This document shows, in pieces, positions 4,421 through 34,200 of a DNA stretch of 64,000 bases. The stretch is from Terebella lapidaria (lineage: Eukaryota; Annelida; Polychaeta; Terebellida; Terebellidae), in NCBI GenBank assembly GCA_949152475.1, contig OX424564.1, forward strand, positions 24,054,165 through 24,118,164. Reading direction: 5' to 3'. Numbering within the stretch: position 1 is the stretch's first letter; every line of letters starts with the position of its first letter. The notes beneath the pieces are model-generated. The model had not been told where the DNA came from. It searched no databases and worked only from the letters and a program-made list of their open reading frames with translations. The translations under genes and the position numbers were made by a program.

Positions 4421-4421
4421 T

Positions 4422-8377: not shown

Positions 8378-8379
8378 TG

Positions 8380-9250: not shown

Positions 9251-10339
9251 ATGGATGTTACAAAGCTGTCTTGTACATGTGTACTCGGGCCTATACTAGC
9301 TGTGTGCCTTGTATTTCTGAGGCTCGTGGAAATACCAACAAAGTATGGCATTTTCAAAGGAGTGTTCTTCGAATCAGCACAAACTTTCTTTGAAATACAC
9401 AACAATAGAACAGCATGGAGTACATCGACCAAAATGAATAGATCAACTGGTCAAAGTAGCAGAAGCAACCCGGACATGGTTGACTCCGAGCCAGAACACC
9501 GAGCCCAGGAACGCTTGTACATTACAGTCCAGACTGCAGGACGACTGGGTAACCAGATGTTTGAGTATGCCGCCCTGCTGTCTATCTCGTCACGACACAA
9601 GGTCTGGAGACCATACCTCCATCCCCTGACCTCGCCACTGCTGAGTAAGACCTTCCCGGCCCTCTCCATACCCACCGTCAACATCAGTCTCATCAACGAC
9701 ATAAAGATCAAGCTGCAATCCGACAGAGCAGCTGACATTAAGATGTTACCAAAAAGGAACATTACCTTGACCGGATACGCACAATCGTTCACGTACTTCA
9801 CCGGCCTGGAAGAGCGTCTGAGGACAGAGTTCCAGTTCTCGAGAGCCGTCGTCCAAACAGCGCAGGAGTTTTTCAGGAACAGCACGCCACCAGACTGGAG
9901 AGACGCTCCGATGACGCGAGTGGGTATCCAGGTGAGGAGGACGGACCAGTTCACGCATAACACAATGCGGCGAGGACAGATCCCCTACCCGCCCTCTTAC
10001 TTCCACCACGCCATGGACTACTTCAGGCGCCGCCACGACCGTCTCCAGTTCATCGTGGCCAGTGACGACCTGGACTGGTGTCGTCAGCACATCCGCGCTA
10101 GGGACGTCGTCTTCGCCGGCTTGAATTTTGCGGAGGACTTGGCGATAATGACCATGTGTGACCACGTGATTATCTCGCCTGGCACGTACAGCTGGTGGGC
10201 TGGCTGGCTTTGTAAGGGCACAACGGTCTATTACGGGGTCTTTCCACAATCTAGGACAAGGTTCGCAAGGTTCTTCGCCAGTGGTCTCTGGATTCCACCA
10301 CCCAAATCAAAATACAATAACTGGGTGCCGATCATTTAA
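9251..10339 (+). CDS. Galactoside alpha-1,2-fucosyltransferase-like protein (GT11 family), single exon
   Basis: This 362-residue type II Golgi-like enzyme is predicted to transfer fucose from GDP-fucose to a terminal galactose. A short cytoplasmic N-terminus and one membrane anchor (about residues 8-26) lead into a stem (30-90) and a lumenal catalytic domain. GT11 motifs in order are AGRLGNQMF at 96-104, GIQVRRTDQ at 225-233 (the HVRRGD-type motif), FIVASDDLDWC at 268-278, and EDLAIMTMCDHVIISPGTYS followed by WWAGWL at 295-320. Five N-glycosylation sequons are present (residues 52, 63, 144, 170, 210). Length matches vertebrate FUT1/FUT2 (about 340-365). The ATG is the first after an in-frame stop at 9233. 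There is no intron in the ORF. The acceptor sugar cannot be read from sequence. The ORF looks intact and is more GC-rich than its surroundings. Confidence 0.93.
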   Translation: MDVTKLSCTCVLGPILAVCLVFLRLVEIPTKYGIFKGVFFESAQTFFEIHNNRTAWSTSTKMNRSTGQSSRSNPDMVDSEPEHRAQERLYITVQTAGRLGNQMFEYAALLSISSRHKVWRPYLHPLTSPLLSKTFPALSIPTVNISLINDIKIKLQSDRAADIKMLPKRNITLTGYAQSFTYFTGLEERLRTEFQFSRAVVQTAQEFFRNSTPPDWRDAPMTRVGIQVRRTDQFTHNTMRRGQIPYPPSYFHHAMDYFRRRHDRLQFIVASDDLDWCRQHIRARDVVFAGLNFAEDLAIMTMCDHVIISPGTYSWWAGWLCKGTTVYYGVFPQSRTRFARFFASGLWIPPPKSKYNNWVPII

Positions 10340-13225: not shown

Positions 13226-13835
13226 TACGGAAGCGTATTGCTATCAAGGGTGTAAAAAATATTATATCGTATGTACGACTTATATCTCGTGCGTACGACT
13301 TAATAACCCGTACGTACGACTTAATAACTCGTATGTACGACTTATTAACCCGTAAGTACGACTTGTTAACCCGTACGTACAACTTAGTATCTCGTACGTA
13401 CGACATAGTAACTCGTACATACGACTTATTAACTCATACATACGAGTTAGTAAGTCGTACTTATGAGACTCATAAGTCGTATGTATGAGATATAACTCAT
13501 ACGTACGAGATAAGAAATTTTACGCACTTGATAGTGAAACGTATTGTTATCAAGTGTGTAAAAAAAATGTATCTCGTACGTATGACTTATATGTCGTATG
13601 TACGACTTATTAACTCGTATGTACGAGTTAATAAGTCGTACGTATGAGTTAATAAGTCGTACGCATGACTTAATAAGTCGTACGTATGACTTAATAAGTC
13701 GTATGTATGACTTAATAAGTCGTACATACGACTTAATAAGTCGTACGTATGACTTAATAAGTCGTACATACGACTTAGTAAGTCGTACGTACGAGATACA
13801 AATTTTTACACACTTGATAGCAATACGCTTCCGTA
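13226..13835. mobile_element. Double inverted-repeat element filled with CGTACG-type palindromic 21-bp repeats
   Basis: The termini are inverted copies of TACGGAAGCGTATTGCTATC followed by AAG-GTGTAAA. They share their first 12 bases with the element at 822-1610, so the two look related. Internally a 21-bp unit (CTTAATAAGTCGTACGTATGA and variants) with the palindromic core CGTACG or GTACGTAC is repeated in two blocks, 13265-13505 and 13575-13795. Between the blocks (about 13515-13570) another pair of inner termini, TTTTACGCACTTGATAG and TTGTTATCAAGTGTGTAAAA, meets head to head. This suggests two roughly 300-bp elements joined end to end. Flanks AC-AATTTT and ACAATACT match at 6 of 8 positions, a weak target duplication. 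There is no coding capacity. Confidence 0.8.
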
Positions 13836-14859
13836 CAATACTCAATTGTCACATGCAAAAACGAGACATGCAGAAACAAATTCTGCATCAATATTTTAGT
13901 GTAAATCCATTGAAACTATCAATAACTTATCAATTTGTCTCACCAGATGACGGCCATGTGTGTACGAAGTTTTCACACCAGGATTGAGGTTGTGTGTTGT
14001 TTTCATAACACCATTATGGAAGTGAATAAATGGATAATTTGTGATACGCTATCCAGGTCAACGATACAGTTAGAATTGTCTGAATGCGAAATAAATCATT
14101 CACTTTTACAGTTGCGTTATGACATTTGCTCTAAAGTGTGAACACTACTCCGGCAACTATGAATATTTCACGAGATTATATGGTATGCCATGGGGGATAC
14201 CGGAATATTATCAACTACTTATTGTATGCTAATGAGACATCCTATTCCAGGTTGTAATACCGATATGAGGCATCCTATTCCAGGTTGTAATACCGATACC
14301 ATCCTGATTCCAGGAAAATCATGAATCAATTTTTCATCACCTCGCTACTCTCTTGAATGACCACCTGATGTGAACAGATTCGTGATTTTTCGGAAGTTCA
14401 AGAGCTTCTCCAGACAAGTAGATCATGCCACACTGAATGTCATACAGCACTCTGGAGTGAAGAGATTGTCCAGGAAGAATAAAACAGTTACATCGGTTTA
14501 TGGACGACATAGAGATTCAATTTTACTCACGGTCCGGTTACGTGAAGATCAGCACATGTATTTACTTCCATGTAGTGTTTAGAAATGTTCTAAAAATGTT
14601 CAGGATTTAGAAATGTTCTAAATCAATATTTATTACTCGAAGTCGTCTTTCTGTCCCCAACATCCAGAGTTTCTCGATAAATCGACTTACGCCTTAGTTA
14701 TATGGGTCATAAGTGAAATAGATGTAATAATATTCTGTTGTAAATCATACTATAAGCGGGCCATACCAGATCACCGGTTTCCTTCACGACAGGAGAACAA
14801 ACTAAACAAAATGTTCCAAACTAAATGGAATATATTGTAAAGTTATTGACTACCGTCCG
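13836..14859. other. Unassigned spacer with one small tandem duplication
   Basis: No gene is recognised. A 34-bp unit (CATCCTATTCCAGGTTGTAA and the following bases) is duplicated in tandem at about 14233-14300, with a third partial copy after it. Nothing else could be supported. Confidence 0.5.
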
Positions 14860-15360
14860 CTCTTCGGGATCCTCGAGGATAGTCCTCTCTCATCCGAGTC
14901 CTTGCGGACGCGCATCCGCTATTCCGGATCCTTGCGGCAGGGCCGCTCACCGGAGGTCGCGGCGGACACGGTAACTACTTCAGCATTAACGGTAACCAGG
15001 TAACAGCCCACCCGACACTCCCAGGCCTACGGACACCGTTCAGAAACTAGTTCATCCCTACGGTGTTAACTGGCGGAGCCTGGCGAGCCGCGGTCTGCCT
15101 CGGGGGCGGAACCCCGTACAGTCCGACATGCTGGCCAGAGCCTCTGTCACACGTCCCGGGAAGGGAGAGAGCTGGCGATCCACAGGGCCGAAGGCCCCCG
15201 AGTCAGCAACTTGTCTCTCCCAGCCCGGGCCTCCCCATGGAAATCGTCCCCAGGGCTCTAGGAGCCCACTACTCAGACCCAGGGAACACAAAGCTCATGG
15301 CGAGCCTCGTGTGCGTCCTAGTCTCGATCTCTCGGACAATCTCCTCGATCGAGTCGCTTC
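14860..15360. other. GC- and CpG-rich island of unknown role
   Basis: The base composition changes abruptly to GC-rich with many CpG dinucleotides, in an otherwise AT-rich window. There are GGATCC-centred near-palindromes at 14868-14935 and blocks such as GGGGGCGGAACCCCG at 15098-15113. Short open frames exist on both strands, but none resembles a known protein. It ends just before the left terminus of the giant element at 15396. It could be a promoter-type CpG island, a relic of a GC-rich repeat, or host DNA next to an insertion. Confidence 0.4.
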
Positions 15361-15639
15361 CAGTGTATATATAATACACCAGAAACTGTCATTAAGGTGC
15401 GGTATTGTACAATAGCGCCCAAAGTGCTATTTTAGAAGAAATCTTTCTAAAACAGCTACTATGGTAACAGGCTGAACGCAGGAGAAAAAGGGAAGGGGAG
15501 TGGGGAGGTCAGCGTGTTGGGGAAAGCAGGGGTCGGGGGGGGGGGGGGGGAGGGCGCGACTCGATGAGGGACGGGGGAGGGAGAGTAGTGGGGAAATATC
15601 GCCCGTGCCCGTCTGAAGTGTTTGTGGGCCTTGGGAAGG

Positions 15640-16660
15640 TAGGGGTTGGACTTTGTCATTCTTGCCTGATTTCCTGGGTTTCTACAGCGTTTCAAATAGC
15701 CTCTAAAAGTGCTATTTGTTCTATTCTGGAACCCGAGGTTATTTGCCTGGGGACTCAGTCAATTTACCAGCTTTTTCTCTTAAACCGTTGGCCTGTTGAA
15801 CAGCTGTAGGGCTGCTGGACTCTGCCGTTTTGGGGTGTTTTTCCTTGTACAAGGCCGCTGGACTCTGTTTTTTTTTGCCTGACTTCTTGGGTTTCTACGG
15901 CGTTTCTAATAGCCTCTAAAAGCGCTATTTGTTCTATTCTGGCACGCAGCGTAACTCCCGTTGGAACTTAGAAAATTTGAAGCAAATCTGTCTATCTGTT
16001 AGGGGCGCTGGACTTTTTGCCTGATTTCCTGTTACAGCGTTTCCAATAGCCTATAAAGGCGCTAATTGGTATATTCTGGAACGCTGTGTAACTCCCGTTG
16101 GAACTTAGAAAATGTTCAATAAAATCTGTCTCCAGGGGGCTTGGGGAAGGAGAGGCCGGGGTGGGGGGGAGGAGTGGGGAAATATTGCCCCTGCGCCACA
16201 GAAGTGTGTGTGGGCCTTGGGAGGGGTAGATTTCCTGCGTTTCTACAGCGTTTCTAATCGCCTCTAAAAGCGCTATTGGTTCTATTCTGGCACGCAGCGT
16301 AACTCCCGTTGGAACTTAGAAAATTTGAAGCAAATCTGTCTATCTGTTAGGGGCGCTGGACTTTTTGCCTGATTTCCTGTTACAGCGTTTCCAATAGCCT
16401 ATAAAGGCGCTAATTGGTATATTCTGGAACGCTGTGTAACTCCCGTTGGAACTTAGAAAATGTTCAATAAAATCTGTCTCCAGGGGGCTTGGGGAAGGAG
16501 AGGCCGGGGTGGGGGGGAGGAGTGGGGAAATATTGCCCCTGCGCCACAGAAGTGTGTGTGGGCCTTGGGAGGGGTAGATTTCCTGCGTTTCTACAGCGTT
16601 TCTAATCGCCTCTAAAAGCGCTATTGGTTCTATTGTGGAATGCAGTGTGAGCCGCGGTGG
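15640..16660 (-). repeat. Left satellite arm of the giant element
   Basis: On the plus strand this shows the reverse complement of the right-arm unit: CTACAGCGTTT, AATMGCCTCTAAAAGCGC and TATTCTGG recur near 15680, 15900, 16040, 16250, 16390 and 16600. G-rich stretches interrupt them (15481-15560, 16135-16180, 16485-16530). The units are spaced further apart and are more diverged than on the right. A 348-bp block (15943-16290) is repeated immediately afterwards (16291 to about 16635) with no visible difference until the last bases. Confidence 0.85.
15943..16635. repeat. Apparently perfect 348-bp tandem duplication within the left arm
   Basis: The block starting with CACGCAGCGTAACTCCCG at 15943 recurs at 16291. 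I see no mismatch between copies over about 340 bases; divergence begins only at TATTCTGG versus TATTGTGG. The identity is far higher than between neighbouring arm units, which points to a very recent duplication or an assembly duplication. Confidence 0.9.
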
Positions 16661-17403
16661 CACTTATGAAATGTTCAAGCGAATGTGTCTTCCTGTCAGA
16701 GGCGTTGGACTGGTTTTTGGTTGTGATTCTCCGGGTCTCTACAGCGCTGCTATGTTTTGCTTTTCACACAATATGTACAGTACGTGGTAAAAACACGGCT
16801 TATTCCGTGAACGTGGTTGTGGAATCTTACACCAAAAACATTTTTGGCCTCGCAAGTTTTTCACAAAACAATTGCTAGAAGTCTGCACTGTATGTTATTA
16901 ACTACAATCAGAAACGCGAGAAACAAAATAAGGTGACATAACGAACGGTGTCAAGCAATACTCGACTAAGAAGTAAATTAGCCTACAAAGCGTGCAAGAG
17001 GACAATAAGCCCAGAATGTAATTACCTGTTAACGGTTCACTGAACACGGGTCACACAAGCTGCCAGGACAACAACAACCTGATATAACTCTGAAACAAGT
17101 GCCAGTGGTAGTGATCACAATAGGGGTGAAGCCCCAGTCGCTTTGATCATGCAAGGGATAAGCGCTGAGGTGGAGCGCGCCTATACAGGCCACAATTTTT
17201 CCTTAAAGCTGGACAATCCCGATAAAAAGAAGAGATTGTAGTAAAAAAAAAATCAAAGGCACAAAGTAAATGTTGTGCTACATGTGTTCCGTCGGTATTA
17301 TTTGCCACTCGTTTCCGAACACTGTGCCGACAACCACTCGGCCTTCATCGGAGAGGCTCGGCGTTTGCTCCACAGTCCCCCAGCCTTTTGGAGTTTCAGC
17401 GGG
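16661..17403. other. Core of the giant element upstream of the transposase
   Basis: This is non-repetitive sequence between the left arm and the transposase promoter. I see no long ORF or repeat. It presumably holds upstream regulatory sequence of the transposase gene. Confidence 0.35.
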
Positions 17404-17410
17404 TATAAAA
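17404..17410 (+). promoter_or_regulatory. TATA box of the transposase gene
   Basis: TATAAAA lies in the context GGGTATAAAATGAG, 48 bases upstream of the ATG at 17458. This is a plausible core promoter distance, with a transcription start near 17435. It supports the reading of 17458-18728 as the beginning of a gene. Confidence 0.55.
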
Positions 17411-17457
17411 TGAGAAACCAAAATCACTGATGCGTTTCAGTTGTAATAGCCAGCGAC

Positions 17458-18728
17458 ATGGACACTTCGCAGCCTGCTCGCCAAACTGGTGTATCCCCGA
17501 ATGATAGTGAAATTGTAAGTAATACTCACCAATAGCATTCATTTCCTTCGAATCGGAAATACTTTGATATCGTTGTAAAATGAAACTTCGGTAAATACTG
17601 TAAACAAATACATTCATGTACGACACAGTAGTTATCTATCCAGCTATCAGTTTGTGTTGTGTGGTATGATGTATACGTGTACAACTGCATGGGCTTGACA
17701 TGCGAGTGATTTGACACGGTTGAGTGCAACATGTATCTAAAGTCATGAGCACTGTGAATCGCTGGAAGTATGCGTATTTGTTTATGTTCTGTATGATGAC
17801 TCATGTCGCAATAGTCTTTGGTGATAATCTACGTTATTCACTTGTACACAGGGCTACGACACAGACTCTGTCTTAGGAGAAGAAGAGTTGCTAGATGATG
17901 CAGTGGAGACGGAAGATCACAGCGATGTGTATGTATACTAATCTACGTAAAATATGTGTGTGTACTGAGGAAAATATCGAAATTTTATGAAACACTACAG
18001 AGTAGAAAAGCCTTTGTTGTTATTGCCATGTACACGTAGTTTGTTCATTGTCAATAATTTATCCAAAAAATTGTAAATTATGATTTCCGGAGTGACAAAA
18101 CGAACTGCTTTTTTTCTAACAGCAACCCTCATAGGCAGACGGAGTATCGTCTCATCAGTGAGAAAAAAGTCATTGTCAGCCACGGACGCCTGGAAGCCCT
18201 AATCGTCAACCAGAAATGAGGTGTAGAGGGATGTGACAGCCATACGGACCCTGCATCCATCAAGTCAACACCCCTACCAGCAGCTGTCAAGTTCACATAC
18301 CAGTGTCACGTACGTTTGCCAATTTATATTGCGATAATTTTTACAATATGATTTATCTAAACACTTTTGATTGGCTCTATATACATGAATTATGTTATTA
18401 CGTGTAAAATAGCTGACAGGTTTCCTTTTTATGTTTCAGAATAAGCACCAGCAGAAGTGGTTGTCATCCAAATACTACGGGAGAAAGTCAAGCACGCACT
18501 TACTCATTCAAATAGCTACCCTGATATGTGGTCTTACCTACGGCTCTGTGTATTTGTTGATGAGGTTCATCGGAGTAGAAATAGAGAAAAGCTCTAATTT
18601 CTACAAAGCCCAGAAAATATACGGGAGAGCCATTGATAGGTACTATGGCAACCACATGGAACAAGTCAAGCATCAGCTAGACAACAAGCCTATGACTTGC
18701 ACGATGGACGTTCGTTACGAGACTCCAG
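17458..18728 (+). pseudogene. Kolobok-like transposase, N-terminal half in four exons, truncated
   Basis: Exons are inferred at 17458-17514, 17852-17928, 18123-18309 and 18440-18728. Introns begin GTAAGT, GTATGT and GTACGT and end CACAG, AACAG and TTCAG, and all phases agree. Exon 1 begins MDTSQPARQTG. Exon 2 is acidic (SVLGEEELLDDAVETEDHSD). Exon 3 has KVIVSHGRLEAL and a Cys-bearing GVEGC...YQCH stretch. Exon 4 continues NKHQQKW and ends in CTMDVRYETPG. This fits the family pattern of a zinc-binding region, W-S, then GDGRxDSPG, where the first catalytic Asp lies. An in-frame TGA at 18217-18219 occupies what is probably a Cys position before GVEGC. The rest of the catalytic domain is absent: the satellite begins about 25 bases after exon 4. 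The exact superfamily is uncertain. Confidence 0.65.
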
Positions 18729-18754
18729 GTAGTTTTAATTCAAGTATGTGGTAA

Positions 18755-21700
18755 GACTGTGAAAGCCTTTAGAGGCTAATACAAACGCCGTGGAAAGCAC
18801 AAGAATCGGGCAAAAACGACAGAGTCCAGCAGCCCTACAGTTCAAGAGAAACTGCGTTCCAAAGTAGAACAAATAGCGCTCTTAGAGGCTATTAGAAACG
18901 CTGTGGAAAGCAAAGGAATCGGGCAAAAAACGACAGAGCCAGCAGCCCTACAGTTTAAGAGAGATTGTGGTCCAGAATAGAACAAATAACGCTTTTAGAG
19001 CCTATTAGAAACGCTGTGGAAAGCAAAAGAATCGGGCAAAAAACGACAGAGTCCAGCGGCCCTACAGTTTGAGAGAAAGTGCGTTCCACAATAGAACAAA
19101 TAGCGCTTTTAGAGGCTATTACAAACGCTGTGGAAAGCAAAAGAATCGGGCAAAAAACGACAGAGTCCAGGAGCCCTACAGTTTGAGATAGAGTGTGCTC
19201 CAGAATAGAACAAATAGCGCTTTTAGAGGCTGTTAGAAACGCTTTATAAAGCAAGATATCCGCAAAAAATGACAAAGTCCAGCAGCCCTACAGTTTGAGA
19301 GAAGCTGCGTTCCAGAATGGAACAAATAGCGCTTTTAGAGGCTATTTAAAACACTGTAGAAAGCAAAAGAATCGGGTAAAAAACGTCCAGTCCAGCAGCC
19401 CTACAGTTTGAGATAAAGTGTGTTCCAGAATACAATAAATACCGCTTTTAGAGGCTATTAGAAACGCTGTAGAAAGCAAGAAATCGGGCAAAAAACGACA
19501 GAGTCCAGCAGCCCTACAGTTTCAGAGAAATTATATTCCAGAATAGAACAAATAGCGCTTTTAGAGGCTATTAGAAACACTGTAGAAAGCAAAGGAATCG
19601 GGCACAAAACGACAGAGTCCAGCAGCCCTACAGTTTAAGAGAGATTGTGGTACAGAATAGAACAAATAGCGCTTTTAGAGGCTATTACAAACGCTGTGGA
19701 AAGCAAAGGAATCGGGCAAAAAACAACAGAGTCCAGCGGCCCTACAGCTTAAGAGAAGCTGCGTTCCAGAATAGAACAAATAGCGCTTTTAGAGGCTATT
19801 AGAAACACTGTAGAAAGTAAAGGAATCGGGCACAAAACGACAGAGTCCAGCAGCCCTACAGTTTAAGAGAGATTGTGGTCCAGAATAGAACAAATAGCGC
19901 TTTCAGAGGCTATTACAAACGCTGTGCAAAGCAAAGGAATCGGGCAAAAAACAACAGAGTCCAGCGGCCCTACAGCTTAAGAGAAGCTGCGTTCCAGAAT
20001 GGAACAAATAGCGCTTTTAGAGGCTATTAGAAACACTGTAGAAAGCAAAGGAATTGGGCACAAAACGACAGAGTCCAGCAGCCCTACAGTTTAAGAGAGA
20101 TTGTGGTACAGAATAGAACAAAGAGCGTTTTTAGAGGCTATTACAAACGCTGTGGAAAGCAAAGGAATCGGGCAAAAAACAACAGAGTCCAGCAGCCCTA
20201 CAGTTTGAGAGAAGCTGCGTTCCAGAATAGAACAAATAGCGCTTTTAGAGGATATTTAAAACACTGTAGAAAGCAAAAGAATCGGGTAAAAAACGACAGA
20301 GTCCAGCAGCCCTACAGTTTGAGATAAAGTGTGTTCCAGAATGGAACAAATACCGCTTTTAGAGGCTATTAGAAACGCTGTAGAAAGCGAGAAATCGGAC
20401 AAAGAACGACAGAGTCCAGGAGCCCTACAGTTTGAGATAAATTGTGCTCCAGAATAGAACAAATAGCGCTTTTAGAGGCTGTTAGAAACGCTTTAGAAAG
20501 CAAGATATCCGCAAAAAATGACAAAGTCCAGCAGCCCTACAGTTTCAGAGAAGCTGCGTTCCAGAATAGAACAAATAGCGCTTTTAGAGGCTATTGAAAA
20601 CACTGTAGAAAGCAGCCTACAGTTTAAGATAGATTGTGGTCCAGAATAGAACAAATAGCGCTTTTAGAGGCTATTAGAAACGCTGTGGAAAGCAAAGGAA
20701 TCGGGCAAAAAACAACAGAGTCCATCAGCCCTACAGTTTGAGATAAAGTGTGTTCCAGAATAGAACAAATAGCGCTTTTAGAGGCTATTAGAAACGCTTT
20801 AGAAAGCAAAGGAATCGGGCACAAAACGACAGAGTCAAGCAGCCCTACAGTTTAAGAGAAATTACATTCCAGAATAGAACAAATAGCGCTTTTAGAGGCT
20901 ATTAGAAACACTGTAGAAAGGAAATGAATCGGGCACAAAACGACAGAGTCCAGCAGCCCTACAGTTTAAGAGAGTTTGTGGTCCAGAATAGAACAAATAG
21001 CGCTTTTAGAGGCTATTAGAAACGATGTGGAAATCAAAGGAATCGGGCAAAAAAACGACAGAGTCCAGCAGCCCTACAGTTTGAGAGAAGCTGCGTTCCA
21101 GAATAGAGCAAATAGCGCTTTTAGAGGCTATTTAAAACACTGTAGAAAGCAAAAGAATCAGGTAAAAAACGACAGAGTCCAGCAGCCTACAGTTTAAGAG
21201 AGATTGTGGTCCAGAATAGAACAAATAGCGCTTTTAGAGGCTATTAGAAACGATGTGGAAATCAAAGGAATCGGGCAAAAAAACGACAGAGTCCAGCAGC
21301 CCTACAGTTTGAGATAAAGTGTGTTCCAGAATAGAACAAATAGCGCTTTTAGAGGCTATTAGAAACGATGTGGAAATCAAAGGAATCGGGCAAAAAAAGG
21401 CAGAGTCCAGCAGCCTTACAGTTTGAGATAAAGTGTGTTCCAGAATAGAACGATTAGCGCTTTTAGAGGCTATTAGAAACGCTTTAGAAAGCAAAGGAAT
21501 CGGGCACAAAACGGCAGAGTCCAGCAGCCCTAAGAGAGATTGTGGTCCAGAATAGAACAAATAGCGCTTTTAGATGCTATTACAAACGATGTGGAAATCA
21601 AAGGAATCGGGCAAAAAAACGACAGAGTCCAGCAGCCCTACAGTTTGAGATAAAGTGTGTTCCAGAATAGAACAAATAGCGCTTTTAGAGGCTATTAGAA

Positions 21701-24700
21701 ACGATGTGGAAATCAAAGGAATCGGGCAAAAAAAGGCAGAGTCCAGCAGCCCTACAGTTTGAGATAAAGTGTGTTCCAGAATAGAACAAATAGCGCTTTT
21801 AGAGGCTATTAGAAACGCTGTAGAAAGCAAGAAATCGGGCAAAAAACGACAGAGTCCAGCAGCCCTACAGTTCAAGAGAAATTACATTCCAGAATAGAAC
21901 AAAGAGCGCTTTTAGAGGCTATTAGAAACACTGTAGAAAGCAAAGAAATCGGGCACAAAACGACAGAGTCCAGCAGCCTATAGTTTAAGAGAGATTGTGG
22001 TCCAGAATAGAACAAATAGCGCTTTTAGAGGCTATTAGAAACGATGTGGAAATCAAAAGAATCGGGCAAAAAAACGACAGAGTCCAGCAGCCCTACAGTT
22101 CAAGAGGAATTACATTCCAGAATAGAACAAATAGCGCTTTTAGAGGCTATTAGAAACGCTGTAGAAAGCAAGAAATCGGGCAAAAAACGACAGAGTCCAG
22201 CAGCCCAACAGTTCAAGAGAAATTACATTCCAGAATAGAACAAATAGCGCTTTTAGAGGCTATTAGAAACACTGTAGAAAGCAACGGAATCGGGCACAAA
22301 ACGACAGAGTCCAGCAGCCTACAGTTTAAGAGAGATTGTGGTCCAGAATAGAACAAATAGCGCTTTTAGAGGCTATTAAAAACACTGTAGAAAGCAACGG
22401 AATCGGGCACAAAACGACAGAGTCCAGCAGCCCTACAGTTTGAGATAAAGTGTGTTCCAGAATAGAACAAATAGCGCTTTTAGAGGCTATTAGAAACGAT
22501 GTGGAAATCAAAGCAATCGGGCAAAAAACGACAAAGTCCAGCAGCCCTACAGTTTGAGATAAAGTGTGTTCCAGAATAGAACAAATAGCGCTTTTAGTGG
22601 CTATTAGAAACGATGTGGAAATCAAAGGAATCGGGCAAAAAACGACAGAGTCCAGCAGCCCTACAGTTCAAGAGAAATTACATACCAGAATAGAACAAAT
22701 AGCGCTTTTAGAGACTATTAGAAACACTGTAGAAAGCAAAGGAATCGGGCACAAAATGACAGAGTCCAGCAGCCCTACAGTTTAAGAGAGATTGTGGTCC
22801 AGAATAGAACAAATAGCACTTTTAGAGGTTATTAGAAACGCTGTAGAAAGCAAGAAGTCGGGCAAAAAACGACAGAGTCCAGCAGCCCTACAATTTGAGA
22901 TAAAGTGTGTTCCAGAATAGAACAAATAGCGCTTTTAGAGGCTATTAGAAACGCTGTAGAAAGCAAGAAATCAGGCACAAAACGACAAAGTCCAGCAGCC
23001 TACAGTTTGAGATAAAGTGTGTTCCAGCATAGAACAAATAGCGCTTTTAGAGGCTATTAGAAACGATGTGGAAATCAAAGGAATCGGGCAAAAAACGACA
23101 GAGTCCAGCAGCCCTACAGTTCAAGAGAAATTACATTCCAGAATAGAACAAATAGCGCTTTTAGAGGCTATTAGAAACACTGTAGAAAGCAACGGAATCG
23201 GGCACAAAACGACAGAGTCCAGCAGCCTACAGTTTAAGAGAGATTGTGGTCCAGAATAGAACAAATAGCGCTTTTAGAGGCTATTAGAAACACTGTAGAA
23301 AGCAACGGAATCGGGCACAAAACGACAGAGTCCAGCAGCCCTACAGTTTGAGATAAAGTGTGTTCCAGAATAGAACAAATAGCGCTTTTAGAGGCTATTA
23401 GAAACGATGTGGAAATCAAAGGAATCGGGCAAAAAACGACAGAGTCCAGCAGCCCTACAGTTTGAGATAAAGTGTGTTCCAGAATAGAACAAATAGCGCT
23501 TTTAGTGGCTATTAGAAACGATGTGGAAATCGAAGGAATCAGGCAAAAAACGACAGAGTCCAGCAGCCCTACAGTTCAAGAGAAATTACATACCAGAATA
23601 GAACAAATAGCGCTTTTAGAGACTATTAGAAACACTGTAGAAAGCAAAGGAATCAGGCACAAAACGACAGAGTCCAGCAGCCTTACAGTTTAAGAGAGAT
23701 TGTGGTCCAGAATAGAACAAATAGCGCTTTTAGAGGTTATTAGAAACGCTGTAGAAAGCAAGAAGTCGGGCAAAAAAAGACAGAGTCCAGCAGCCCTACA
23801 GTTTGAGATAAAGTGTGTTCCAGAATAGAACAAATAGCGCTTTTAGTGGCTATTAGAAACGATGTGGAAATCGAAGGAATCGGGCAAAAAACGACAGAGT
23901 CCAGCAGCCCTACAGTTCAAGAGAAATTACATACCAGAATAGAACAAATAGCGCTTTTAGAGACTATTAGAAACACTGTAGAAAGCAAAGGAATCGGGCA
24001 CAAAACGACAGAGTCCAGCAGCCTTACAGTTTAAGAGAGATTGTGGTCCAGAATAGAACAAATAGCGCTTTTAGAGGTTATTAGAAACGCTGTAGAAAGC
24101 AAGAAGTCGGGCAAAAAAAGGCAGAGTCCAGCAGCCCTACAGTTTGAGATAAAGTGTGTTCCAGAATAGAACAAATAGCGCTTTTAGAGGCTATTAGAAA
24201 CACTGTAGAAAGCAACGGAATCGGGCACAAAACGACAGAGGCCAGCAGCCTACAGTTTGAGAGAGATTGTGGTCCAGAATAGAACAAATAGCGCTTTTAG
24301 AGGCTATTAGAAACGATGTGGAAATCAAAAGAATCGGGCAAAAAAACGACAGAGTCCAGCAGCCCTACAGTTTCAGATAAAGTGTGTTCCAGAATAGAAC
24401 AAATAGCGCTTTTAGAGGCTATTAGAAACGATGTGGTAATCAAAGGAATTGGGCAAAAAAGGCAGATTCCAGCAGCCCTACCGTTTGAGATAAAGTGTGT
24501 TCCAGAATAGAACAAATAGCGCTTTTAGAGGCTATTAGAAACGCTGTAGAAAGCAAGATATCGGGCAAAAAACGACAGAGTCCAGCAGCCTACAGTATAA
24601 GAGAGATTGTGGTCCAGAATAGAACAAATAGCGCTTTTAGAGGCTATTAGAAACGATGTGGAAATCAAAGGAATCGGGCAAAAAAACGACAGAGTCCAGC

Positions 24701-27700
24701 AGCCTATAGTTTAAGAGAGATTGTGGTCCAGAATAGAACAAATAGCGCTTTTAGAGGCTATTAGAAACGCTGTAGAAAGCAAAGGAATCGGGCACAAAAT
24801 GACAGAGTCCAGCAGCCTACAGTTTAAGAGAGATTGTGGTCCAGAATAGAACAAATAGCGCTTTTAGAGGCTATTAGAAACGCTGTAGAAAGCAAAGGAA
24901 TCGGGCAAAAAAACGACAGAGTCCAGCAGCCCTACAGTTTGAGATAAAGTGTGTTCCAGAATAGAACAAATAGCGCTTTTAGAGGCTATTAGAAACGCTG
25001 TAGAAAGCAAGAAATCGGGCAAAAACCGACAGAGTCCGGCAGCCCTACAGTTCAAGAGAAATTACATTCCAGAATAGAACAAATAGCTCTTTTAGAGGCT
25101 ATTAGAAACGCTGTAGAAAGCAAGAAATCGGGCAAAAAACGACAGAGTCCAGCAGCCTACAGTTTAAGAGAGATTGTGGTCCAGAATAGAACAAATAGCG
25201 CTTTTAGAGGCTATTAGAAACGATGTGGAAATCAAAGGAATCGGGCAAAAAACGACAGAGTCCAGCAGCCCTACAGTTTGAGATAAAGTGTGTTCCAGAA
25301 TAGAACAAATAGAGCTTTAAGAGGCTATTAGAAACGCTGTAGAAAGCAAGAAATCGGGCAAAAACCGACAGAGTCCGGCAGCACTACAGTTCAAGAGAAA
25401 TTACATTCCAGAATAGAACAAATAGCGCTTTTAGAGGCTATTAGAAACGCTGTAGAAAGCAAAGGAATCGGGCACAAAAACGACAGAGTCCAGCAGCCTA
25501 CAGTTTAAGAGAGATTGTGGTCCAGAATAGAACAAATAGCGCTTTTAGAGGCTATTAGAAAACGATGTGGAAATCAAAGGAATCGGGCAAAAAACGACAG
25601 AGTCCAGCAGCCCTACAGTTTGAGATAAAGTGTGTTCCAGAAATAGAACAAATAGCGCTTTTAGAGGCTATTAGAAACGATGTGGAAATCAAAGGAATTG
25701 GGCGAAAAAAGGCAGAGTCCAGCATCCCTACAGTTTGAGATAAAGTGTGTTCCAGAATAGAACGATTAGCGCTTTCAGAGGCTATTAGAAACGCTTTAGA
25801 AAGCAAAGGAATCGGGCACAAAAACGACAGAGTCCAGCAGCCCTACAATTTAAAAGAGATTGTGGTCCAGAATAGAACAAATAGCGCTTTTAGAGGTTGT
25901 TAGAAACGCTGTTGAAAGCAAGAAGTCGGGCAAAAAACTGTAGAAAGCAAAGGAATTGGGCAAAAAAGGCAGATTCCAGAGATTGTGGTCCAGAGTCCAG
26001 CAGCCCTACAGTTTGAGATAAAGTGTGTTCCAGATTAGAACAAATAGCGCTTTTAGAGGCTATTAGAAATGCTGTAGAAAGCAAGAAAATCGGGCAAAAA
26101 CCCACAGAGTCCGGCAGCCCTACAGTTCAAGAGAAATTACATTCCAGAATAGAACAAATAGCGCTTTTAGAGGCTATTAGAAACGCTGTAGAAAGCAAGA
26201 AATCGGGCAAAAAACGACAGAGTCCAGCAGCCCTACAGTTCAAGAGAAATTACATTCCAGAATAGAACAAATAGCGCTTTTAGAGGCTATTAGAAAACAC
26301 TGTAGAAAGCAAAGGAAATTGGGCAAAAAAGGCAGATTCCAGCAGCCCTACAGTTTAAGAGAGATTGTGGTCCAGAGTCCAGGAATTGGGCAAAAAAGGC
26401 AGATTCAAGCAGCCTACAGTTTAAGAGAGATTGTGGTCCAGAGTCCAGCAGCCCTACAGTTTGAGATAAAGTGTGTTCCAGAATAGAACAAATAGCGCTT
26501 TTAGAGGCTATTAGAAATGCTGTAGAAAGCAAGGAAATCGGGCAAAAATCGACAGAGTCCGGCAGCCCTACAGTTCAAGAGAAATTACATTCCAGAATAG
26601 AACAAATAGCGCTTTTAGAGGCTATTAGAAACGCTGTAGAAAGCAAGAAATCGGGCAAAAAAACGACAGAGTCCAGCAGCCCTACAGTTCAAGAGAAATT
26701 ACATTCCAGAATAGAACAAATAGCGCTTTTAGAGGCTATTAGAAACACTGTAGAAAGCAAAGGAATCGGGCACAAAACGACAGAGTCCAGCAGCCTACAG
26801 TTTAAGAGAGATTGTGGTCCAGAATAGAACAAATAGCGCTTTTAGAGGCTATTAAGAAACGATGTGGAAATCAAAGGAATCAGGCAAAAAACGACAGAGT
26901 CCAGCAGCCTACAGTTTAAGAGAGATTGTGGTCCAGAATAGAACAAATAGCGCTTTCAGAGGCTATTAGAAACGCTGTAGAAAGCAAGAAATCGGGCAAA
27001 AACCGACAGAGTCCGGCAGCCCTACAGTTCAAGAGAAATTACATTCCAGAATAGAACCAAATAGCGCTTTTAGAGGCTATTAGAAACGCTGTAGAAAGCA
27101 AGAAATCGGGCAAAAAACGACAGAGTCCAGCAGCCCTATAGTTCAAGAGAAATTACATTCCAGAATAGAACAAATAGCGCTTTTAGAGGCTATTAGAAAC
27201 ACCGTAGAAAGCAAAGAAATCGGGCAAAAAAACGACAGAGTCCAGCAGCCTACAGTTTAAGAGAGATTTGTGGTCCAGAATAGAACAAATAGCGCTTTTA
27301 GAGGCTATTAGAAACGATGTGGAAATCAAAGGAATCGGGCAAAAAAACGACAGAGTCCAGCAGTCCTACAGTTTGAGATAAAGTGTGTTCCAGAATAGAA
27401 CAAATAGCGCTTTTAGAGGCTATTAGAAACGATGTGGAAATCAAAGGAATCGGGCAAAAAAAAGGCAGAGTCCAGCAGCCCTACAGTTTGAGATAAAGTG
27501 TGTTCCAGAATAGAACAAATAGCGCTTTTAGAGGCTATTAGAAACGCTGTAGAAAGCAAGAAATCGGGCAAAAAACGACAGAGTCCAGCAGCCCTACAGT
27601 TCAAGAGAAATTACATTCCATAATAGAACAAATAGCGCTTTTAGAGGCTATTAGAAACACTGTAGAAAGCAAAGGAATCGGGCACCAAAAGACTGAGTCC

Positions 27701-30700
27701 AGCAGCCTACAGTTTAAGAGAGATTGTGGTCCAGAATAGAACAAATAGCGCTTTTAGAGGCTATTAGAAACGCTGTAGAAAGCAAAGGAATCGGGCACAA
27801 AACGACAGAGTCCAGCAGCCTACAGTTTGAGATAAAGTGTGTTCCAGAATAGAACAAATAGCGCTTTTAGAGGCTATTAGAAACGCTGTAGAAAGCAAAG
27901 GAATCGGGCACAAAATGACAGAGTCCAGCAGCCTACAGTTTAAGAGAGATTGTGTTCCAGAATAGAACAATTAGCGCTTTTAGAGGCTATTAGAAACGAT
28001 GTGTAAATCGAAGGAATCGGGCAAAAAAAGGCAGAGTCCAGCAGCCCTACAGTTTGAGATAAAGTGTGTTCCAGAATAGAACAAATAGCGCTTTTAGAGG
28101 CTATTAGAAACGATGTGGAAATCAAAGGAATTGGGCAAAAAAGGCAGATTCCAGCAGCCCTACAGTTTGAGATAAAGTGTGTTCCAGAATAGAACAAATA
28201 GCGCTTTTAGAGGCTATTAGAAACGCTGTAGAAAGCAAGAAATCGGGCAAAAAACGACAGATTCCAGCAGCCTACAGTTTAAGAGAGATTGTGGTCCAGA
28301 ATAGAACAAATAGCGCTTTTAGAGGCTATTAGAAACGATGTGGAAATCAAAGGAATCGGGCAAAAAAACGACAGAGTCCAGCAGCCTATAGTTTAAGAGA
28401 GATTGTGGTCCAGAATAGAACAAATAGCGCTTTTAGAGGCTATTAGAAACACTGTAGAAAGAAAAGGAATCGGGCACAAAACGACAGAGTCCAGCAGCCT
28501 ACAGTTTAAGAGAGATTGTGGTCCAGAATAGAACAAATAGCGCTTTTAGAGGCTATTAGAAACGCTGTAGAAATCAAAGGAATCGGGCAAAAAAACGACA
28601 GAGTCCAGCAGCCTATAGTTTAAGAGAGATTGTGGTCCAGAATAGAACAAATAGCGCTTTTAGAGGCTATTAGAAACGATGTGGAAATCAAAGGAATTGG
28701 GCAAAAAAGGCAGATTCCAGCAGCCCTACAGTTTGAGATAAAGTGTGTTCCAGAATAGAACAAATAGCGCTTTTAGAGGCTATTAGAAACGCTGTAGAAA
28801 GCAAGAAATCGGGCAAAAAACGACAGAGTCCAGCAGCCTACAGTTTAAGAGAGATTGTGGTCCAGAATAGAACAAATAGCGCTTTTAGAGGCTATTAGAA
28901 ACGATGTGGAAATCAAAGGAATCGGGCAAAAAAACGACAGAGTCCAGCAGCCTATAGTTTAAGAGAGATTGTGGTCCAGAATAGAACAAATAGCGCTTTT
29001 AGAGGCTATTAGAAACGCTGTAGAAAGCAAAGGAATCGGGCACAAAACGACAGAGTCCAGCAGCCTACAGTTTAAGAGAGATTGTGGTCCAGAATAGAAC
29101 AAATAGCGCTTTTAGAGGCTATTAGAAACGCTGTAGAGAGCGAAGGAATCGGGCAAAAAAACGACAGAGTCCAGCAGCCCTACAGTTTGAGATAAAGTGT
29201 GTTCCAGAATAGAACAAATAGCGCTTTTAGAGGCTATTAGAAACGCTGTAGAAAGCAAGAAATCGGGCAAAAACCGACAGAGTCCGGCAGCCCTACAGTT
29301 CAAGAGAAATTACATTCCAGAATATAACAAATAGCGCTTTTAGAGGCTATTAGAAACGCTGTAGAAAGCAAGAAATCGGGCAAAAAACGACAGAGTCCAG
29401 CAGCCCTACAGCTCAAGAGAAATTACATTCCAGAATAGAACAAATAGCGCTTTTAGAGGCTATTAGAAACACTGTAGAAAGCAAAGGAATCGGGCACAAA
29501 ACGACAGAGTCCAGCAGCCCTACAGTTTGAGATAAAGTGTGTTCCAGAATAGAACAAATAGCGCTTTTAGAGGCTATTAGAAACGCTGTAGAAAGCAAGA
29601 AATCGGGCAAAAACCGACAGAGTCCGGCAGCCCTACAGTTCAAGAGAAATTACATTCCAGAATAGAACAAATAGCGCTTTTAGAGGCTATTTGAAACGCT
29701 GTAGAAAGCAAGAAATCGGGCAAAAAACGACAGAGTCCAGCAGCCCTACAGTTCAAGAGAAATTACATTCCAGAATAGAACAAATAGCGCTTTTAGAGGC
29801 TATTAGAAACGCTGTACAAAGCAAGAATTCGGGCAAAAAACGACAGAGTCCAGCAGCCCTACAGTTCAGGAGAAATTACATTCCAGAATAGAACAAATAG
29901 CGCTTTTAGAGGCTATTAGAAACGCTGTAGAAAGCAAAGGAATCGGGCACAAAACGACAGAGTCCAGCAGCCTACAGTTTAAGAGAGATTGTGGTCCAGA
30001 ATAGAACAAATAGCGCTTTTAGAGGCTATTAGAAACGCTGTAGAAAGCAAAGGAATCGGGCACAAAACGACAGAGTCCAGCAGCCTACAGTTTAAGAGAG
30101 ATTGTGGTCCAGAATAGAACAAATAGCGCTTTTAGAGGCTATTAGAAACGATGTGGAAATCAAAGGAATCGGCAAAAAAACGACAGAGTCCAGCAGCCCT
30201 ACAGTTTCAGATAAAGTGGGTTCCAGAATTGAACAAATAGCGCTTTTAGAGGCTATTAGAAACGCTGTAGAAAGCAAAGGAATCGGGCACAAAACGACAG
30301 AGTCCAGCAGCCCTACAGTTTGAGATAAAGTGTGTTCCAGAATAGAACAAATAGCGCTTTTAGAGGCTATTAGAAACGCTGTAGAAAGCAAAGGAATCGG
30401 GCACAAAACGACAGAGTCCAGCAGCCTACAGTTTAAGAGAGATTGTGGTCCAGAATAGAACAAATAGCGCTTTTAGAGGCTATTAGAAACGCTGTAGAAA
30501 GCAAAGGAATCGGGCACAAAACGACAGAGTCCAGCAGCCCTACAGTTTGCGATAAAGTGTGTTCCAGAATAGAACAAATAGCGCTTTTAGAGGCTATTAG
30601 AAACGCTGTAGAAAGCAAGAAATCGGGCAAAAACCGACAGAGTCCAGCAGCCCTACAGTTCAAGAGAAATTACATTCCAGAATAGAACAAATAGCGCTTT

Positions 30701-30920
30701 TAGAGGCTATTAGAAACGCTGTAGAAAGCAAGAAATCGGGCAAAAAACTACAGAGTCCAGCAGCCCTACAGTTCAAGAGAAATTACATTCCAGAATAGAA
30801 CAAATAGCGCTTTTAGATGCTATTACAAACGATGTGGAAATCAAAGGAATCGGGCAAAAAAAGGCAGAGTCCAGCAGCCCTATAGTTCAAGAGAAACTGC
30901 GTTCCAGAATAGAATAAATA
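18755..30920 (+). repeat. Right satellite arm: about 107 copies of a 113-114 bp unit
   Basis: Each unit holds CAGAATAGAACAAATAGCGC, TTTTAGAGGCTATTAGAAAC, a variable G-C-T-G-T-A-GAAAGC part and CGACAGAGTCCAGCAGCC. Spacing measured at several places is 113 bases. AATAGC and GCTATT in each unit can pair as a small hairpin. The linker between units occurs in about four types (TTTAAGAGAGATTGTGGTCC, TTTGAGATAAAGTGTGTTCC, TTCAAGAGAAATTACATTCC and GAGAAGCTGCGTTCC), mixed in local higher-order patterns. One three-unit block (341 bases) is repeated at about 22556, 23466 and 23807. Near 25930-25990 and 26360-26440 units are cut and rejoined. Because 114 is divisible by three, minus-strand frames such as FLIASKSAICSILEHTLSQT stay open by chance. 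Confidence 0.95.
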
Positions 30921-31029
30921 GCTGAAAATAGCGTCTTGTAGCTGTTTTTAGCACATTTTTTTCTAATTAGCGTCTATGCTTATTGCAGTGGAATAGCTAG
31001 GAATAGCCTAGGAAATCAAATACCGCACC

Positions 31030-31289
31030 TTACTCGTGGCTTCGCGGTGGAGTGTCATTTGAAAGTCCACACAGGCTGATGAAGCGGACTAGGGGGCCCT
31101 TTTTCTCGATCACCCCAGGTGATGACTAGTAGTGGAGGGGGGGTGGGAGGAGGAGGTTAACGGCAGGCTGCAGCTGCAGATGTTTCTAATATCTACCATC
31201 GCCTCATCACTGTGGGCCACCGCTAATAAAAGTAATAGCGCCAAGGTGCGAGAAGATTAGCTTTCCCTCATATAGTTATAACCACGTGG
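31030..31289. other. Host flank right of the giant element
   Basis: A short stretch begins with the TTAC flank. It includes a hairpin-like AACCACGTGG site near 31278 and a G-rich run near 31134-31155. No gene is recognised. Confidence 0.35.
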
Positions 31290-34200
31290 ACGTCATCCAT
31301 TCATTCATTCCGGCGACCAAACCGCCTAAACTTTGTTATTTAATAGAACGACAGGAAAGAGTAATAAAACCGCACGATAGAGCGCTCGACCTTCAGGCAT
31401 CCGAGTCCACGAAGACACCAAAAAAAGATACAGCATTGGAAAAGTGCAATACCCTGAGGTTAAGGCTTCTTCCCTAGGTAGCACTACCACGGGGACACCA
31501 CGGGAAAGTGCAGGATAATTCAGAGTGAGTGGGAGGTGGCATTAAGCTGACAGCGTTTGGCAAATTGTGCGGAATCACTTGCACTCGCTTAATATTCACT
31601 CTGAGGTATTCATGTACACTGATTGCACATTACTGTGGAACTAGTCGTGTTATCAAGTTGCTTGAGCCCAAATTGTTTTAACTCTTCTCGATATAGAGTC
31701 TTTTGTAGTAATGATGTCAATATGTCAAGTATGGCTTGATAAATATAAACTGGATTTTGTACTTGTGTATATGTCATGGCTGTTCTAAAGTCCTTCACTA
31801 GAATATACAGTAGAAACGAAAATTGTATCTACTGGCTGTCCCTGATGACGCTAGTGTGTCCTTGCATATAGATATTCGGCCGAGGTTTGTTTCTCCTCCA
31901 AAAAGGGTATTCTATCGGTTTCATCATAATTTTCTGTTAGTGCAAATCAGTTGGTAAATACTCATCGGAAGTCCCGACGTCTCAGACATATTATGAGCAA
32001 AGCAGTAACTAGTTTATTATCCAGGCAACAGGAGAATAGCAATTCGTCCACAGACAGACACCACAGTTTTGCGGAAGAATAAACACACCCATAGACGTGA
32101 TTTCAGACTTTTGGGTCATGGACAAATGAAGAACTACACAACAATAAATCAGGGAAACAAATTTTTTTTTATTCCGGTAGCAATTGAACAAGATTTGTCA
32201 ACCTACGTAGTAACCCCATTCAACATGGTTATTGTTGGCGGATATTATGAGAGAAATCCGGGTCTAATGTACTTCAATGCAATGAGATTTCTGAAGCTTT
32301 AAGAACGAAATGTGATGTTGGCAACTTGGCAATGCCTAATAATGCACCATTTCAAATGACCCCCGTATATCTCATGAATGCGTGTATCTGACTTCACTCG
32401 GTAATAATTTCCGTAGTTCAAAACGAACCAATGGCTATTGAGGGCAGAACATGATTGTGCTTCCATTTCGAAAGGGTCCTTTGTTTTAGTTATATGTCTC
32501 AAACATTTGTTCTATCACTCACGGGCACTTCACTACATGCACTATGCTCGGATAACGACTTATACATACAATGGGCCGCACCCCAAATCATGCACTATAT
32601 CCCAGTGAAAAGTAAGCAGATGGTACTAGGGTATATCGTCGACATTGTAGTGAATAACAAATACACTGTACTTTAATAAATTAGGCTCGTCTCGGATCGT
32701 GCCATAGGATACAGCAGCGACAAGTTCGTTATAAATTGTAACAGGGTTAGATGAAAATGATTAGTTGTTTGATGGGGTATCGTGTTTTCCGGTAACGAAA
32801 GTGCACCTGAGATTCAACGACACTTTATGTAAACACAAGTTAGACACTGCACGTTTGAAGCTCGCTAGCTAATGAACAAATCTATCTCATTATATAAGGA
32901 ATTAACATCAATTACATGCCATAATAAATCCCTGATGAAAGTGCATCTATATGTGCTCAAACGTATGTACAAATAATTACAGATCTAAATGTATCAATTA
33001 ACACCTAAATGTGTGATAAGAGAAATTTGACCAATTTCAAAAAGCATATGAAATCCAAATATTAACATGTACTTACCCATTTGCCTTTATCCTGTTTTCT
33101 AGTGTGCGACAAAAATAGGCTACATCACATAATCCGCATTAGCAGTGAAAGCTTCGTGCCCTGCAAAATATGAAATAACCTCTCATTCAGCAAAATTCAA
33201 GACGTGAATAGGATCACCGATGATAAGACACGTGTTCTCTACACCTGACCAAATACCCTGTTTGTTATGGATTAAACCTGAATTTTCCACTAGACAGTTG
33301 TACATAGGGCATCAGTGCTTGGAGTTATGGTATTACGTTCGGGAGCAGATCATATTGCTGCTCGGAAGTAAATCTTGAAATTTTGTTTTGCAATGCTTCC
33401 CGAAATGCGATAGAAAAAGAAGGAAACTCGGTATGATCCTGTACCAGGAATTGATGTTCGAAATAAACGCCATAGCCAGAAGGATGTTCCCGTTTTTATA
33501 TTATTATGCAAAAGCTGCTTCTGTGATCTAGTTTTATGGCTGCACTAGTTGACTTCTCGAATAAGGTAGGCAGGAAATCATGCATTCCAAAGGTACTAGT
33601 AAGTGTCTGATAATAGATACATGTATAATGATGAAATGATGCCTCCCCCCTCCCCCCCCCCCCTCCAAGAAATACTGTTATCAACGGAGCACTAGCTATT
33701 ATGCATCAAGTGTTTATGATAGGAGAGGAATACATTCTCGCACTTTGCTCTTGCAACAATATCATGGTGTTGCATTCCCAACAATAAATAGTATCTGGTG
33801 GCTCTGGGAGTTAGCAGGTGCCAGAGTTGGCATGTTTGCCGTGATAAACGATTTCCTCAATCATCACTGTGAATATAATTTTCTCATTCCTAAAATGCTC
33901 TCATTAAGGGCATTTTGGCACGAAATGCCCTTATGGTTTTGTCAGAATTTTTTTTTTCTTTTTTTTTTCACTTTTCGGTTTCCGGACGACAACTTGAGAA
34001 CGCCTTGACGTATCTTCGAGAAATTTTCACCAGTTATCACATACATACATAGATGAACCCTATTGTTTTGGAGCCGGCTCCGAGGTCCGGTTAGTCCGTG
34101 AGGATGAATTTTGTGTCAAATGGTTTCCGGATGATAACTCAAAAAGTACTTGTGCTACCATTCTGAAACTTGCAAGTACGTTGATATAGTGTCTCAGAGG

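Follow-up and report, generated by a model that had tools for sequence, protein, structure and literature searches.

A 15.6-kb foldback-like transposon, probably of the KDZ type, with inverted tandem-array arms in the annelid Terebella lapidaria

INTRODUCTION

The origin and spread of dispersed satellite arrays is an open question. Here, we address it at one locus of Terebella lapidaria, a 64-kb window (i.e., the whole stretch analyzed, 64,000 nucleotides, C11:24054165-24118164) in which a unit of ~113 bp is repeated in opposite orientations on the two sides of a transposase-like gene, all of it between inverted termini. To which element do these arrays belong, and did they arise where they now stand? 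An earlier note, made from the letters alone, proposed that a Kolobok-like element had inserted at a TTAA target and that its own subterminal repeats had expanded into a satellite within that single insertion. Our analysis leads to a different account, which we regard as very probable: the element is a non-autonomous, foldback-like transposon of the KDZ (Zisupton-like) kind, its arms are inverted tandem arrays, and a Kolobok-like piece is nested within it.

RESULTS

Ends and target sites of the element

We searched the genome of the window (761.6 Mb, 438 contigs, cited by number as C2, C5, and so on) for further copies with 401 bp of the left end and 281 bp of the right end. The terminal sequence TAAGGTGCGGTATT has exactly two matches in the window, at 15393 (+) and 31019-31032 (-), and 596 exact sites genome-wide, as opposed to one for its backward control. 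These sites are therefore the ends of a large family, and the claim that the window holds a transposon with terminal inverted repeats (TIRs) stands. Both ends were found on C11 (the window), C2, C6, C14, C8, C13, and C12, a left end alone at C5:37978986, and a right end alone on C278. Flanks were read for all 12 left ends with ≤2 mismatches (one each on C2, C8, C11, C12, and C13, two each on C5, C6, and C14, and a degenerate one on C16).

Since the left start CATTAAGG is common to copies with differing flanks, and the right end CCTTACTC to 9 of the 11 right ends (the exceptions being C14 and a sister, L018), the element spans 15390-31035 (15,646 bp, CATTAAGGTGCGGTATT...AATACCGCACCTTACTC). The inverted match that had been placed at 15396 and 31029 is thus real, with limits 6 bp further out on each side. 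For the same reason, the TTAA and TTAC beside those termini, although correctly read, are the element's own end sequence and not a target duplication. Indeed, of the distinct right ends inspected (11), 10 read TTAC and one, that of C14, reads TTCA, probably through a deletion at the junction. Another family-type end (CCAAGGTGCGGTATTCGAC, minus strand) lies at C14:13803281 (L038), ~3.7 kb to the right of the C14 copy. The features of the element and its borders are as follows.

15382-15389, no strand: left flanking target GAAACTGT (site A), within a high-copy repeat; uninterrupted sites occur elsewhere
15390-15406, plus strand: left TIR, CATTAAGGTGCGGTATT (copies with different flanks, genome census)
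15390-16650, plus strand: left arm, terminal sequence followed by six unit anchors (Tandem Repeats Finder [TRF], anchor scan)
16700-17202, plus strand: interior of the outer, putatively KDZ-type element, common to C2, C6, C8, C14, C5, and C12
17203-17206, no strand: TTAA insertion point of the Kolobok-like element
17207-18764, plus strand: Kolobok-like element, of which the 5' part with the 5' TIR, the promoter region, and the first exons is present; truncated at 18764
17458-18728, plus strand: first exons of the Kolobok transposase, with limits inferred by eye and an in-frame TGA at 18217-18219
18765-30922, plus strand: right arm, tandem array of the ~113-bp unit (TRF, anchor scan)
30923-31035, plus strand: right terminus with many AATAGC motifs (motif counts)
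31019-31035, minus strand: right TIR, GAGTAAGGTGCGGTATT on the minus strand (flank comparison)
31036-31043, no strand: right flanking target GTGGCTTC (site B), the other half of which flanks the near-identical C2 copy

The target duplication of the family is 8 bp, not TTAA. The C13 copy has CATATCCT on both sides, and a paralogous empty site for it (L046) carries a single CATATCCT, as judged by eye. A 114-bp miniature inverted-repeat transposable element (MITE; L017) is flanked by ACTTTTTT, and the C12 copy by GGGAAGTC; the left end of the latter (C12:102902) lies ~16 kb from the remainder of the copy, presumably owing to a later insertion. In a sister element on C5, (A/G)GACAAAC matches at 7 of 8 positions, and in MITE L054 AGCTAAAA is duplicated, provided that its left end begins at TGTTTTTAAGG. 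The C14 copy has ACATCACC on the left, and its right junction fits the identical 8 bp if 8 bp were lost there. Three loci weigh against this uniform picture: MITE L053 shows no duplication at its flanks, and the flanks differ in the C6 (TACAAATA/GAAACATG) and C8 (GAAAGTTC/TCTTTCCG) copies. The C6-left and C8-left target sites are present uninterrupted elsewhere (L061-L064), and the continuations at these four loci do not match the right flanks of C6 or C8. Collectively, the search for an empty site that the earlier note had called for yielded uninterrupted sites (site A, C8-left, C6-left, and the C13 paralogue), with an 8-bp target in place of the single TTAA expected.

Assignment of the outer element

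To its right, the C6 copy is flanked by interior sequence of the outer element: 7.2 kb are 99% collinear with C8:4876175-4883396, between the ends of C8, and the right end of C6 therefore lies in a C8-like copy. The left flank of C6 is not in such a copy, and a deletion between direct left arms would explain the mismatch of its flanks. C8 represents a fuller form, with ends and array as in the window copy. Within the C8-like stretch (L032), three open frames were taken as exons. The first matches CxC5, one of the CxC cysteine clusters linked to KDZ transposases (PF18718, E=1.8e-12, 47.9 bits, over the cut-off of 26.9), the next matches KDZ (PF18758, E=2.1e-5, profile positions 68-209 of 217, 24.8 bits, cut-off 26.6), and the third gave no convincing Pfam match. 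Using tblastn, none of the three frames was matched in the window.

Because a CxC5 frame and a near-threshold KDZ frame occur together with 8-bp duplications, which are also produced by Zisupton (PMC12730594), we call the family KDZ, Zisupton-like, and regard the window copy as a probable derivative without the gene. The window element would then most likely be a non-autonomous cut-and-paste DNA transposon of the KDZ kind, and the idea that the bounding element is Kolobok-like has to be given up. Two points count against our assignment, namely, that the KDZ score is slightly under the Pfam curated cut-off and that the gene was read from the C6 flank (99% collinear) and not from C8 itself.

Two other transposase candidates were considered. 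The P transposase domain (PF12017) gave 91 matches (150 of 216 candidates scored), none of which was seen by eye near the 100 listed ends (C1 and part of C2), which lends no support to it as a partner. A DUF7869 gene (PF25273, 1.8e-15) is found at C278:13859-17640 and at six other places, with 98-100% identity among the seven copies, and perhaps represents an undescribed transposase; its C278 copy breaks off at the point where a second 113-bp array stops. It was rejected as the transposase of the family: the 7.5-kb flanks of its near-identical C6 copy hold neither an outer end nor the unit, and its homology begins within a few bases of the array's stop, which counts against such a role.

The inner Kolobok-like piece

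The spliced transposase-like gene reported between the arms is present, yet it is not the outer element's own; it is the 5' part of a Kolobok nested at an internal TTAA. C8 runs straight through the corresponding TTAA with no Kolobok insert, which identifies this TTAA as the entry point of the Kolobok. The window lacks the later exons that its relatives possess. Its 97-residue exon matches 26 places, among them 6 derivative copies and 7 further places (88-94% identical) in other elements. One of these seven, a Kolobok copy with both ends, lies at C13:17293500-17299282 (TTAA AGCTGGACAATCCCG ... CGGGATTGTCCAGCT TTAA), with the terminal letters TTAA AGCTGG...CCAGCT TTAA and inverted ends of ~208 bp.

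The signs of Kolobok are a TTAA target, 5'-RR and YY-3' ends, and a C/DxxH motif (PMC9587614). The C13 copy shows the TTAA duplication and the 5'-RR/YY-3' ends, and a frame in L045 contains DLWH between the second D and the last E, as read by eye and unaligned to known Koloboks. Four pieces compared with Pfam up to E=5 gave a weak rve match (0.21) as their sole hit, with no match to piggyBac.

Could the whole element still be a Kolobok with a TTAA target duplication and its own subterminal repeats expanded? The TTAA at the left end and the Kolobok-like transposase piece inside would suit this proposal. We nevertheless consider it highly improbable, given the TTAC or TTCA at the right ends, the 8-bp duplications, and a true Kolobok that has other ends (AGCTGGACAATCCCG...) and sits inside at a TTAA of its own.

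The arms and their turnover

As the earlier note had described, the ~113-bp unit has opposite orientations in the two arms, over ~1 kb on the left and ~12 kb on the right. We counted 6 anchors in left orientation (15694-16603) and 105 in the opposite, right orientation (18866-30797), whereas the rest of the 64-kb window has none, and neither does any of 5 single-base shuffles. TRF reported periods of 113-114 bp and 341 bp (three units) for the right array and of 348 bp for the left one (15884-16711); unit identity in the right array is 0.894 at lag 3, barely over the 0.889 at lag 1. The subterminal repeats are thus a satellite-like array of the element, and its architecture is of the foldback type, i.e., inverted tandem-repeat arms whose repeat number differs between copies.

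The motif AATAGC is enriched in the left end, the right end, and three unit copies (2, 3, and 6 occurrences versus shuffle means of 0.14, 0.28, and 0.33) as well as in two sister right ends, which makes it perhaps a candidate for a motif recognized by the transposase. Its absence from 90 bp of the sister's left end and its enrichment in the Kolobok piece (4 versus a shuffle mean of 0.77) both speak against this idea and leave it weak.

A derivative in which the early intron of the Kolobok is joined to the right-arm array, with the KDZ gene and the 3' half of the Kolobok missing, is found at six loci (C11, C2, C6, C13, C14, and C5), all with an identical 3' breakpoint of the Kolobok piece. The array is present without the Kolobok piece in C8 and C12. 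A comparison of unit counts between copies, as had been suggested, revealed that array size differs from 30 to 169 anchors in the six copies read through (C6, 169; C14, 114; C11, 105; C5, 54; C12, 30); the right arm of C13 has 42 at a slightly stricter cut. In the Kolobok piece, C6 and C11 differ at 2 of 1,563 positions, but their anchor counts are 169 and 105, respectively. At the two edges, over about 2 kb and 485 bp, their arrays are 99.8% identical, and the middle is a mosaic of shared blocks. Perfect internal duplications of 1,770 bp and 991 bp were found in C6 and C14, respectively. Mean unit identity is 85-89% both within and between copies; for the Kolobok piece, derivative copies show 97-100% identity to one another.

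Since C8 and C12 carry the array without the Kolobok piece, and since units are 85-89% alike within a copy while the Kolobok piece is 97-100% alike between copies, the array predates this insertion. The proposal that the satellite was born inside it is accordingly not borne out; what the locus shows is the turnover of a satellite carried by a mobile element, as opposed to its birth at the window site. The repeats were thus already an array when inherited, and duplication and loss of several units at a time reshape it. Two points weigh against this view: C14 and C11 have no near-identical array block of at least 400 bp in common, and arrays of such length may be partly misassembled.

It is also conceivable that a free satellite was invaded, or flanked by chance, by transposon ends and that the array is not owned by the element. 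A 23-mer of the unit has 586 exact genome matches (control, 0), of which 359 lie in the six read-through copies and 28 in the right arm of C13; the remaining 199 are expected to include C8 and C278. The 387 matches placed are all in or beside the family, and such a reading could also draw on a second array on C278 (8095-13844) for which no outer terminus was found and which abuts the DUF7869 gene. We regard it as very unlikely, as all unit-bearing places among the matches listed are on the same nine contigs as the family ends, and a comparison of C6 with C11 shows conserved array edges and ends.

A sister element (C5:29837949-29854671) keeps both ends, the left one at 79% over 75 bp and the right one at 73% over 122 bp, as well as a few diverged 113-bp-like pieces near its right end (62-89% over 27-176 bp). 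Its arms are an inverted pair of another unit, of ~129 bp × 6.3 on the right, with inverted left copies that are 68-87% identical. These two examples, few as they are, suggest that arm satellites are a family habit and not an accident of one copy, and that between sister elements one arm satellite can give way to another, with the ends remaining conserved. The interior of the sister holds a further tandem array of 125 bp × 11.5 (L055, 2038-3486).

Apparently exchanged flanks of two near-identical copies

The element itself is one bounded insertion, as had been claimed; its flanks are not those of one, for in this assembly they come from two different target sites. The window copy has GAAACTGT on the left and GTGGCTTC on the right, and the C2 copy is its reciprocal (GTGGCTTC left, GAAACTGT right). 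Joining the C11-left and C2-right flanks gives a 301-bp site A with a single GAAACTGT, found uninterrupted at 40 of the 40 scored places (of 2,295 candidates), all with a shown identity of 100% (16 at the top score and 24 slightly lower). The left flank (14830-15389) is part of a high-copy repeat, 97% identical to C278:18421-18979 and strikingly homogeneous on many chromosomes. For site B, the scoring of 40 of 174 candidates turned up each half just once, the left one at C2:1292432-1292581 and the right one at C11:24085200-24085359.

One way to reach this arrangement is ectopic (non-allelic homologous) recombination of two copies, i.e., a reciprocal C2-C11 exchange amounting to a translocation. 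The reciprocal 8-bp pairs, the uninterrupted site A, and site B halves found once each all agree with it, and exchanged duplications are a published sign of such events for Galileo (PMC2775673). In the same work, chimeric as opposed to identical copies separate ectopic recombination from hybrid-element insertion. An alignment of the C11 and C2 copies (15,647 columns) contains 2 mismatches and 16 gap openings; both mismatches and 15 of the 16 gaps (one-base indels) fall at window positions 25476-27456. Two shifted 114-bp blocks near 23873-23990 were discarded, since they look like a placement effect of MAFFT and BLAST gives one collinear alignment. Copies that are near-identical and not visibly chimeric would require recent transposition plus a separate exchange, and we find ectopic recombination possible but doubtful.

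In hybrid-element insertion, ends belonging to two sister-chromatid copies at site B would instead enter site A together; a single event would then produce a translocation as well as two identical copies whose duplications are swapped. This is what the inversion model of PMC2775673 predicts when extended, as we do here, to two chromosomes, and the swapped 8-bp pairs and near-identity of C11 and C2 fit it. It is inseparable from ectopic recombination, however, if the parent copies were already near-identical, and for KDZ it is not documented in the portions of the literature available to us; we consider it unlikely.

The near-identity of the two copies fits hybrid-element insertion but also an assembly misjoin, in which two near-identical 15.6-kb copies, at A and B, were crossed so that the window has the left side of A and the right side of B with no biological exchange. 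The small number of differences just given is in line with this, and the cluster of one-base indels and mismatches resembles unpolished consensus. Moreover, a scaffold gap of 200 N lies outside the left end of both C2 and C8, at a distance of ~730 bp and ~430 bp, respectively, and the flanks of C6 and C8 are also unmatched, with partners absent among the ends read. Unmatched flanks in Galileo were likewise discussed as possible assembly products, although those authors thought long scaffolds reliable (PMC3573991). The 64-kb window, however, has no N gap, and matched flanks were obtained for C13 and C12 and, by inference, for C14 with its 13.7-kb array. A misjoin is a serious explanation to which we give a little short of an even chance.

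Other features of the window

Scans for Rfam families (14000-33000) and tRNAs (whole window) gave no matches. A single open frame at 9236-10336 (+) encodes a fucosyltransferase-like protein of glycosyl transferase family 11 (PF01531, E=4.5e-38). Remains of a non-LTR (long terminal repeat) retrotransposon lie at 1601-4435 (-), with a reverse transcriptase (PF00078, 2.2e-25) and an endonuclease-like open reading frame just under the Pfam cut-offs. Neighboring minisatellites occupy 4421-6876 (22 bp × 112, open in several frames) and 7113-8379 (23 bp × 55, 97% matches). TRF also reported a 42-bp array of near-palindromic TCGTACGTACGA units at 13267-13794, 1.6 kb from the element's left end, and arrays of 79, 146-147, and 293 bp at 34357-36779, 3.3 kb outside the element.

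DISCUSSION

We propose the following history. A Kolobok-like element inserted at TTAA within the interior of the putatively KDZ-type element, and a deletion may then have created the Kolobok-array junction and removed the KDZ gene. A KDZ transposase acting in trans would recognize the ends, perhaps through the AATAGC motifs of the ends and of every unit, and cut-and-paste transposition would leave 8-bp duplications, with the array traveling along with the element. Within the array, multi-unit duplication and deletion (by unequal exchange or replication slippage) probably keep altering its length, and such long, similar, inverted arrays may render copies prone to exchange, nesting, and arm deletion. 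A bolder version, which we put forward tentatively and would not ourselves expect to hold in full, is that KDZ elements here repeatedly grow satellite arms, with a unit that differs per lineage, and stay mobile with arms of >10 kb; the C11/C2 pair would then be a real reciprocal exchange, brought about either by KDZ transposition of an aberrant, hybrid-element type or by recombination via the arms.

Arrays that lie between conserved ends, in copies that are near-identical outside them, allow array growth and loss to be read against a single-copy clock. If true, the swapped flanks would tie such arms to chromosome rearrangement. The locus also adds to the foldback-like group an apparent KDZ-type element whose arms exceed in length those of structurally complete Galileo and Tetris copies, as the latter are described in the parts of the literature available to us. 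Satellite-like tandem arrays are reportedly dispersed by mobile elements, as here, in the Helentrons of Crassostrea gigas; to our knowledge, these belong to another transposon class and have no inverted arms.

Galileo and Tetris are earlier examples of foldback-like elements with arms made of repeats, and satellites born from transposons are likewise known. What looks new is an apparently KDZ-type element of the foldback-like kind, of which we saw none in the accessible portions of the literature; a string search of the literature for AAGGTGCGG returned nothing relevant by title. The inner piece resembles Kolobok (PMC9587614) in its TTAA, 5'-RR...YY-3' ends, and DxxH-type motif and differs in being, inside the window, a 1.56-kb passenger, with the array bounded by other ends. 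With Zisupton/KDZ elements (PMC12730594, PMC9297572), the family shares the 8-bp duplication, a multi-exon gene, and CxC5 with a near-threshold KDZ in the fuller relative; here, however, the inverted tandem-array arms reach ~19 kb and the window copy lacks the gene. The parts of the KDZ/Zisupton literature available to us do not describe inverted tandem-array arms.

Galileo, a Foldback-like element of the P superfamily (PMC2775673, PMC3573991, PMC3688188), also has long inverted arms that are repetitive inside, with transposase sites in the arm repeats themselves, as well as exchanged target duplications and chimeric copies with unmatched flanks. It differs in its superfamily, its 7-bp duplications, and the two or three arm repeats described for it in the part of the literature available to us, as opposed to tens to hundreds. 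Tetris, a non-autonomous foldback transposon of Drosophila virilis that was suggested to belong to Mutator and whose autonomous partner was not found (PMC4079207), has inverted ends of ~220-bp tandem repeats, satellite-like arrays of ≤66 units, a similar total length, and duplications of 8-10 bp, comparable to the 8 bp here. The arms of its structurally complete copies measure up to 1.7 kb, and larger arrays may, according to its authors, disrupt transposition (PMC4079207), whereas in the apparently KDZ-like family described here 105 units lie between intact ends in two near-identical copies.

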